The position numbers and the translations under genes are program-made. Below the pieces are notes generated by a model. That model was not told the DNA's origin. It was given only the letters and a program-made list of their open reading frames with translations, and did no database searches. Of a DNA stretch of 64,000 bases, positions 19,494 through 49,493 are shown one piece after another. Source of the stretch: an uncultured Flavobacteriaceae bacterium (GTDB lineage: Bacteria > Bacteroidota > Bacteroidia > Flavobacteriales > Flavobacteriaceae); contig CANMSB010000001.1 of NCBI GenBank assembly GCA_947500445.1, forward strand, positions 248,001 through 312,000, given 5' to 3'. Within the stretch, counting starts at the first letter, position 1; each line of letters starts with the position of its first letter.

Positions 19494-19570
19494 CCTGATA
19501 ACTACATAACGGCTGGGGTATTTGTCGAACTTGAATTGAAGTTGTCGGTATTGACAGCTGGAAAATGGCG

Positions 19571-27590: not shown

Positions 27591-27658
27591 TGTTATAATT
27601 TACTATTGGCTAAAAACCAACGTTCACGATTTTCGTCAGAGGTTGATTTTATCGGTTG

Positions 27659-48027: not shown

Positions 48028-48795
48028 TCAATTCCTTTTATAAAACCGGTCGTCTACCTTGGGGGCTAAGGTGTCTACGGCCTTAAAATAGTCGATTATG
48101 GCGTTCCGGATCAAATAATCGGTCTGGTGAAAAGCCCTGGCATCGGCAAAGAAACCCATGTTGTCGCCACCTTTTACTAGGTAATCGTTGGTAGCAATGT
48201 GGTAGGTTTCCGTTTCGCTAAAAGGCCCGCCGGCAATGGTTACTTGATGAATGGTATCGTCGTTATTCAAAACAATTTGGATTCCCGCCACGGGATGTGC
48301 TCTTTTTGAGCGTATCAAAAAGGATAAAAGCGACTTTACGGCCATTCCGGGCAATTCAACGACCACGATGTAATTTTCAAAAGGCATCACCTCGTATGCC
48401 GTCCGGGCGCTTACCGGACCTTTGGAAATAGTAGATCGTATACCACCGTGGTTGAGCAACACAAAATCGATGGTATTGGAAGTGCGGCTTTTATATATCG
48501 GGTTGGCACGCTCCAACACTAAATCCGCCAAAAGATTGCCTGCGGTAGTATTGTAGCTGCCGTCGTCCTTGGAAATGGCGTTGGGCGCATAGGCCAAGGT
48601 ACTGTCGAGTACCGCATCTATCCGTGAACGATAGGGGAGGATCATGGCGTCGATGGAATCAATTTTTGCGATCGTGTCCAATATAGGGAGCTGTGCTGCC
48701 GTTATTTTTTGTAAGGAGTAACCGTCCGGTTTACAGGATGCCACTATGCATGTTGTTACAAAAATAACAAAATGTTTTATTTTTAAAACAGTCAT
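48028..48795 (-). CDS. 5'-nucleotidase C-terminal-domain lipoprotein
   Basis: A 255-residue protein with a signal sequence and lipobox VASC (Cys21), so it is a separate exported lipoprotein. The rest matches the 5'-nucleotidase C-terminal domain: GNLLADLVLERA, LLNHGGIRSTISKGPVSARTAYEVMPFENYIVVVEL, and YHIATNDYLVKGGDNMGFF, the substrate-stacking region. It lies upstream of the metallophosphatase gene, so the two halves of UshA are encoded as separate lipoproteins in inverted order. A non-covalent pair is the simple reading. Confidence 0.88.
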   Translation of the reverse strand: MTVLKIKHFVIFVTTCIVASCKPDGYSLQKITAAQLPILDTIAKIDSIDAMILPYRSRIDAVLDSTLAYAPNAISKDDGSYNTTAGNLLADLVLERANPIYKSRTSNTIDFVLLNHGGIRSTISKGPVSARTAYEVMPFENYIVVVELPGMAVKSLLSFLIRSKRAHPVAGIQIVLNNDDTIHQVTIAGGPFSETETYHIATNDYLVKGGDNMGFFADARAFHQTDYLIRNAIIDYFKAVDTLAPKVDDRFYKRN

Positions 48796-48801
48796 CCTTT
48801 T

Positions 48802-48809
48802 TATCTTTG
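48802..48809 (+). promoter_or_regulatory. -7 box upstream of the structured leader
   Basis: TATCTTTG, exact TAnnTTTG, 148 bp before the DUF6913 ATG. A second exact box (TACATTTG) follows at 48835-48842. Either would place the predicted RNA fold at the 5' end of the transcript. Confidence 0.5.
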
Positions 48810-48834
48810 CCCCATCAGGTGATAGGATATTCTT

Positions 48835-48842
48835 TACATTTG
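48835..48842 (+). promoter_or_regulatory. -7 box adjoining the structured leader
   Basis: TACATTTG, exact TAnnTTTG. Transcription starting about seven bases later would begin near 48849, at the first base of the predicted fold. Confidence 0.5.
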
Positions 48843-48847
48843 TATTG

Positions 48848-48938
48848 CATGCCCTTGGGACCTTGTGGTGGAACAGGTGGTACTTTATTCCAATGCAATT
48901 GGATAAAGACCCGATGCTCCAATGGACAAGGTTGCATG
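48848..48938 (+). ncRNA. Candidate structured RNA (small RNA or 5' leader element)
   Basis: Nested complementary segments: CATGC (48848-48852) with GCATG (48934-48938); GACCTTGT (48859-48866) with ACAAGGTT (48926-48933); TGGA (48869-48872) with TCCA (48918-48921). A long hairpin follows: GGT(A)CTTTAT(T)CCAAT (48879-48894) with ATTGGATAAAGACC (48898-48911), 14 pairs with two single-base bulges and a GCA loop. It sits directly after a -7 box and ends 18 bp before the DUF6913 start. I do not recognise the family; it lacks the GGAAG-type loop of SRP RNA. The same bases can encode a short Cys-rich peptide, so the RNA reading is a hypothesis. Confidence 0.4.
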
Positions 48939-48950
48939 TTTAAATGGTAA
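48849..48950 (+). CDS. Possible 33-residue cysteine-rich peptide (alternative to the RNA reading)
   Basis: ATG at 48849 to TAA at 48948-48950. The peptide begins MPLGPCGGTGGTLFQC, continues with CSNGQGC, and ends MFKW; it has four cysteines and seven glycines. It is too short for statistics and overlaps a strong predicted RNA fold. The last codons (ATG TTT AAA) repeat the first codons of the following gene. A Cys/Gly-rich leader peptide or exported micropeptide is possible. I cannot match it to a family. Confidence 0.25.
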   Translation: MPLGPCGGTGGTLFQCNWIKTRCSNGQGCMFKW

Positions 48951-48956
48951 AAATAC

Positions 48957-49493
48957 ATGTTTAAAGGAATAAAAGATAAGCTGAAATATAAATCTGGTGT
49001 TAAGTTTTTGAAAGCGGCCATGGAACGCCCCGTAGTACCGGCAGACCGGTCCCACGGAATTACCTCGGTCGGGTGTATTGTGGATATGGACAAGTTTGAA
49101 AATTCGGATGTCTTTTTCCAGTTTCAAGAAGAGTACGCACTTCGGCCCAATGCCGTCAAAATAATAGGGTACAAGAGTTATTATGATAAAAACTCCCCCT
49201 ATGCCACCCCTGTATTTTCCGATAAGGACCTGGGATGGAACGGTGCGATCGAAAACAGTTACGCTTTGGAATTTTTAAGCCGGGAATACGATTTGCTGGT
49301 CAATTATTACAAAGAAGATAACTTGCTCATGAAATTGATGAGCGTCAATACCAAGGCACGTTTTCGTGTTGGTTTCAGTGAAGTCGATAGTTATTTTAAC
49401 GATTTGATTTTGGAAGTTCCCTTAAACGACTTCAAGGTCTTTAAAAAAGAGCTAAAGAAGTATTTGAGCGTCCTCAATGAAATAGGCGGATAA
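48957..49493 (+). CDS. DUF6913 family protein
   Basis: A 178-residue soluble protein, basic at the N-terminus (MFKGIKDKLKYKSGVKFLK). It continues with SHGITSVGCIVDMDKFENSDVFFQFQEEY and IIGYKSYYDKN, and ends in a Leu/Lys-rich helix. I place it in the flavobacterial DUF6913 family on overall pattern. Function is unknown; the YALEFLSREYDLLVNYYKEDN stretch shows no catalytic motif. It precedes dapA by 76 bp on the same strand. Its 5' region carries two -7 boxes and the fold at 48848-48938, so this gene may be regulated through its leader. Confidence 0.8.
   Translation: MFKGIKDKLKYKSGVKFLKAAMERPVVPADRSHGITSVGCIVDMDKFENSDVFFQFQEEYALRPNAVKIIGYKSYYDKNSPYATPVFSDKDLGWNGAIENSYALEFLSREYDLLVNYYKEDNLLMKLMSVNTKARFRVGFSEVDSYFNDLILEVPLNDFKVFKKELKKYLSVLNEIGG

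Follow-up and report, generated by a model that had tools for sequence, protein, structure and literature searches.

The stretch between the promoter box and the start codon of a DUF6913 gene is occupied by a long interrupted hairpin in the DNA analyzed here, a 64,000-nt window from an uncultured Flavobacteriaceae bacterium (GenBank assembly GCA_947500445.1, contig CANMSB010000001.1, positions 248,001 to 312,000, forward strand). We tentatively regard this element as the 5'-terminal stem-loop of the predicted DUF6913 mRNA, perhaps born from palindrome mutation, which would exert a modest effect on the life or the translation of the message. The element has the look of a minor RNA leader that changes fast, rather than of a new RNA class or a peptide gene. 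As a type, the hairpin is best assigned to a general kind already known, its sequence turning over rapidly.

Anatomy of the leader and the DUF6913 gene

The DUF6913 gene (48957..49493, + strand) was taken from the ORF list and encodes a 178-aa protein matching the Pfam family PF21857. The gene upstream is divergent and carries a 5'-nucleotidase C-terminal domain, while the ORF downstream is presumably dapA, a name given by eye. Structure modeling of the DUF6913 protein yielded an alpha/beta fold with a mean pLDDT of 79.5, the other four models having values of 60–69. The best PDB matches of the model were O-GlcNAc transferases, with TM-scores on the query of at most 0.44 among the matches listed. 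These matches to a predicted fold are too weak for naming a function, and they give no hint of RNA binding. A PDB-sequence profile search with the protein returned seven weak matches (best E 0.008). A literature search for 'DUF6913' found no paper, and none of the titles among the matches listed in a limited search named a DUF6913 leader of such kind.

Upstream of the gene, the −7 promoter box TACATTTG (48835..48842, + strand) is kept ahead of the DUF6913 genes of relatives. In Flavobacterium psychrophilum, TAnnTTTG lies at −12 to −5, according to the available part of PMC9723704. This position predicts +1 at G48847 (+ strand), the fifth base past the box and the position at which the outer stem begins in the computed fold. 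The long interrupted hairpin spans 48847..48939 (+ strand); judged from the fold and from the relatives, which differ or lack it, it is a species-specific form of the leader insert. Ahead of the DUF6913 ATG lies the A-rich initiation region AAATGGTAAAAATAC (48942..48956, + strand), for which most relatives have AAATGTAAAAATAC or AAATGTAAAAGTAC.

The fold of 48835–48950 had an MFE of −37.5 kcal/mol and a z of −2.57, with 3 of 200 shuffles being as good. The stems described in the first-pass annotation are present in it, including the apical 14-pair hairpin with two single bulges (48879..48911, + strand; inverted repeat I2), and the structure directly follows an exact TAnnTTTG box, as had been stated there. 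Nested stems are formed by 48847–48852/48934–48939, 48859–48866/48926–48933, 48869–48872/48918–48921, and 48874–48875/48915–48916. The outermost predicted stem (48837–48842/48941–48946) includes promoter bases and would be absent from the mRNA. Folded alone, the 97-nt insert gave a z of −2.78 (p 0.012, 500 shuffles). For the reverse strand of the element, z was better still at −3.38, with none of 200 shuffles folding as well; the element is thus a quasi-palindrome. The window leader ranked first in MFE per nt and second in z among 32 leaders from 464 kb of the same genome; this ranking was limited to leaders in which a TAnnTTTG box is followed by 50 nt or more, with genes crudely taken as ORFs of at least 100 aa. 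Another leader of this genome with a stronger fold (L188, z −3.84), likewise after a TAnnTTTG box, was seen near its position 19536 on the − strand.

Inspection by eye revealed no U-tract directly 3' of the window's stem, the next bases being TTAAATGG; the stem is therefore not an intrinsic terminator. A 21-nt tandem near-repeat (76%) runs across the DUF6913 start (48935–48955 and 48956–48976), yielding an upstream ATGTTTAAATGGTAA that mimics the first codons of DUF6913. A second TAnnTTTG-like box, TATCTTTG (48802–48809), precedes the first by 25 nt, and in several relatives its place is taken by TATCTTAG.

If the transcript starts at G48847, a stem-loop of about 93 nt would stand practically at the 5' end of the mRNA, followed by the A-rich initiation region and then the DUF6913 start codon. 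The self-complementary insertion would lie in the DUF6913 5' untranslated region; its size and sequence are peculiar to this species. Acting as a generic 5'-terminal stem-loop, it would leave the 5' end not single-stranded, so that 5'-end-dependent decay could be slowed, and it would set the structure upstream of the initiation region. Against this reading, just 45% of the start region (−20 to +20) is free of pairing in the predicted mRNA. Pairing around the start region has been linked to lower initiation in F. johnsoniae, according to the available part of PMC6847099.

Leader size and sequence turnover in relatives

DUF6913 genes were collected from 47 of 60 genomes, from 65 of 397 at E ≤ 1e-60, from all 10 searched in the window's genus, and from the best 80 of 108 relatives (genome contigs); many of the collected loci represent one genome under two ids. 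Of 133 loci, the leader parser handled 114; among the 19 that it skipped, four belong to the 81 rows of the gene tree. The full-length leader of the window was entered by hand, and row L161, a false parse, was excluded. Leaders with at least 40 nt between TTTG and ATG were called long.

With the window included, 27 of the 77 parsed DUF6913 leaders carry an insert, and 50 have just 17–30 nt between box and start. On the gene tree of 81 rows (27 long, 50 short, 4 unparsed), 22 of the 27 long leaders fell within one 24-row group (support 89/83, not starred). This group comprises the window's genus (with Pelagihabitans pacificus), Zobellia, Pseudozobellia, Euzebyella, Pareuzebyella, and Pricia, and its remaining two rows have 27 nt. 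Long leaders outside the group belong to two Ulvibacterium rows, one further relative, Maribacter halichondriae, and Cerina. Five changes of leader length are needed on this single-gene tree.

The typical short leader reads TACATTTG-TNN-AAATGTAAAAATAC-ATG; long leaders retain both ends and add an insert. The box and the A-rich region are conserved across relatives, and the intervening segment is variable. The insert sequence showed no conservation between relatives, which have other hairpins or none at the same place. With 114 nt, the window leader is the longest among the parsed leaders. Leaders of just 63–65 nt, with a different sequence, are found even in the nearest relatives (88% protein identity). 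Inside the window's genus, leader size jumps from 63–66 to 114 nt. Another jump was found in Pricia's genus, from 52–53 nt (three other members, matching Pricia loci) to 107 nt (L138).

The −7 box, within 48834–48842, and the initiation region, which are also present in short-leader relatives, form an inverted repeat, TTTACATTT-N4-AAATGTAAA. With each distinct leader counted once, AAATGTA occurs in 14 of 21 short leaders and in 24 of the 30 long ones. This inverted repeat may be an operator, or it may have arisen by chance from the A-rich initiation region.

Pairing between the ends of the insert

The 30 distinct long leaders were reduced to 23 by collapsing seven Zobellia variants to one and omitting one of the three Ulvibacterium-type leaders. 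The insert ends paired above dinucleotide shuffles, with a Fisher p of 1.6e-6 that kinship among the 23 leaders makes optimistic. Leaving out the window, 15 representatives (five from the genus of the window, two from that of Pricia) gave a Fisher p of 1.7e-5. Individually, the end pairing reached p < 0.05 in only 3 of the 23 leaders; the window gave 0.10, and L055, L057, L084, L051, L047, and L094 gave 0.2–0.7. Our confidence in the RNA reading was slightly lowered because few leaders were significant alone. Plain folding energy was at p < 0.05 in only 5 of the 30 leaders, with a mean z of −0.92.

Pairing was better between a leader's own arms than after exchange of arms among species (p 0.0009–0.010, n = 23, five arm widths). 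Without the window, the swap gave p values of 0.0065 and 0.034 (n = 22), or 0.005 and 0.008 for 14 representatives, and inside the window's genus 0.016 and 0.020 (n = 9). Nine control windows were run on 22 of the 23 leaders, omitting L138. Eight of them were null (Fisher ≥ 0.115, swap p ≥ 0.11), and one, a coding window at +30, yielded a Fisher value of 1e-3 and a swap p of 0.011. Since one of the nine controls reached this level, the swap test is weak on its own.

Conservation of the stems in relatives, to which the first-pass annotation had tied its proposal, did not appear in consensus folding: RNAalifold gave no consensus pairs in the insert on the MAFFT alignments A3 (18 leaders) and A4 (10 leaders), in which MAFFT may misplace arms. 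Complementarity of the insert ends is supported on average, and base-by-base covariation was not borne out. The first paired base lies 3–7 nt past the box in 19 of the 23 leaders, corresponding to −2 to +3 for a box that ends at −5, as given in the available part of PMC9723704. For a 5'-terminal stem-loop, the shape would be kept more than the sequence, and the stem would therefore be free to drift fast; template switching inside the palindrome may rebuild it.

Alternative readings and known systems

The main and strong rival is a neutral or near-neutral quasi-palindrome, whose inverted-repeat flanks (TTTACATTT...AAATGTAAA), together with template switching during replication, made the spacer and homogenize it without any RNA function. 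We consider this a real but somewhat less probable explanation. If selection acted on an RNA hairpin, one of the strands would be expected to gather G-U pairs. In the 23 leaders, the two strands paired equally (Fisher 2.3e-6 for plus vs. 9.2e-6 for minus; mean MFE −8.70 vs. −8.72; plus lower in 12 of 23). As the reverse strand pairs equally well, there is no sign of RNA-strand selection, and a DNA palindrome maintained by template switching explains the equality just as well. The flank arms are mutually complementary, the size jumps inside the two genera are large, and inverted 6-mers are over-represented in the window leader, with eight where shuffles average 2.4 (eight being attained in 7 of 500). 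The available part of PMC8794818 reports that hairpins arise and are maintained through template switching, a process that is putative at the DUF6913 leaders. Against the palindrome reading, the window leader has no excess of inverted 7-mers (75 of 500 shuffles) or of direct repeats (131 and 77 of 500). Also against neutrality, and in favor of the RNA stem-loop, the long leader is retained in 22 of the 24 rows of one group, and the stem starts near the predicted +1 in 19 of the 23 leaders. It is unlikely, in our judgment, that the insert is a sequence-free structural leader, where the box/initiation inverted repeat (TTTACATTT/AAATGTAAA) would seed hairpins to be repeatedly gained, enlarged, and rewritten by template switching, and selection would keep only a 'hairpin at +1' that tunes DUF6913. 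If true, this class would be invisible to covariance models because the homologous sequence is replaced wholesale.

The structured leader lies ahead of a conserved gene, and a UUUU tract lies in the inner insert of 8 of the 15 representatives, where 3.3 would be expected (p 0.012); this tract might pair with the A-rich initiation region. Both observations would suit a specific cis-regulatory RNA (riboswitch, protein-binding leader, or attenuator) that senses a signal and controls DUF6913. The UUUU tract is absent from the window leader, however, as is a terminator U-tract, and the insert has neither a conserved sequence nor a consensus fold. A search of the whole window with Rfam release 15 (4227 models) at the gathering score gave a single match, the L19-Flavobacteria ribosomal protein leader at 27618–27645 (− strand, 44.8 bits). 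With E up to 10, five sub-threshold matches were found in 48700–49050, none on the hairpin body. These results agree with the first-pass annotation, which did not recognize the element as a known riboswitch, SRP RNA, or 6S RNA. Of its proposal of a new small RNA or leader element, the leader fits, given the self-complementary inserts in 27 of 77 leaders and their average end pairing above shuffles. A small RNA in the sense of a conserved family finds no support, since the insert shares neither sequence nor fold among relatives and the remaining 50 leaders have no long insert. We find a specific regulatory RNA quite improbable.

The 33-codon frame with four Cys reported in the first-pass annotation exists on the + strand (ORF list), running from ATG 48849 to TAA 48950 and ending 6 nt ahead of the DUF6913 ATG. 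It could encode a Cys-rich micropeptide or act as a regulatory upstream ORF, its ATG lying two bases past the predicted +1. Among frames of at least 15 codons starting in the leader, no counterpart was present in the 22 other long leaders. The longest separate frame elsewhere (L094) has 32 codons, one Cys, and an unrelated sequence that overlaps the DUF6913 start; the next (L040) has 23 codons, a GTG start, and two Cys. The peptide matched neither Pfam (E up to 1) nor NCBIfam (E up to 5). The frame is most likely not a gene, the suggestion of an unannotated peptide found no support, and we see very little chance for either version of the coding alternative. The least credible reading is a small foldback or MITE-like mobile element whose insertion duplicated TTGCATG. 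TTGCATG is found at both ends (48845–48851 and 48932–48938), but this repeat overlaps the self-complementary GCATGC, and so it belongs to the stem anyway. The own genome contains no second copy of the insert, the next matches being 14–22 nt long with E at least 0.16. Against 397 family genomes (own included, E up to 0.001), the insert had one other match, about 40 nt in a gene that we take to be murG by its GGGTGGHIFPA motif. The match covers the Gly-rich start of murG in one genome, with 35 of 41 columns identical. The insert as a copied piece of murG was rejected, as nothing longer than short words could be matched in the genome's own murG.

The 5'-terminal stem-loop that we favor can be set beside known systems. 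The ompA type is one mRNA-stabilizing stem-loop at the 5' terminus. Other stabilizing 5' hairpins have been described for E. coli (papA, appended bla hairpins) and for B. subtilis leaders (PMC3997798, available part). As in these E. coli and B. subtilis cases, the DUF6913 stem would start within a few nt of the predicted 5' end, upstream of the initiation region; unlike them, the DUF6913 leader, a putative stabilizer, turns over in sequence and size between species. For F. psychrophilum, the available part of PMC9723704 lists 64 structured 5' transcribed regions. The DUF6913 leader resembles them as a structured leader of the same family that follows a TAnnTTTG promoter and has no Rfam hit. 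RNA-seq underlies those regions, some of which are conserved in several genera, whereas the DUF6913 leader is unconserved in sequence and was recognized from genomic DNA. Hairpins derived from template switching, as described in the available part of PMC8794818, share with it the reverse-complement arms and, in part, a pairing that is kept while the sequence changes; they differ in that template switching at the DUF6913 leader is only putative.

If the hairpin is functional, the leaders would form a natural series behind the same promoter and ahead of the same gene, with 17–30, about 50–65, or more than 100 nt from box to start. The effect of a 5' hairpin alone on mRNA life in Bacteroidota would then become directly testable. 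In that case, the DUF6913 leader would also be one that keeps its shape without sequence conservation, a kind missed by family-model searches.
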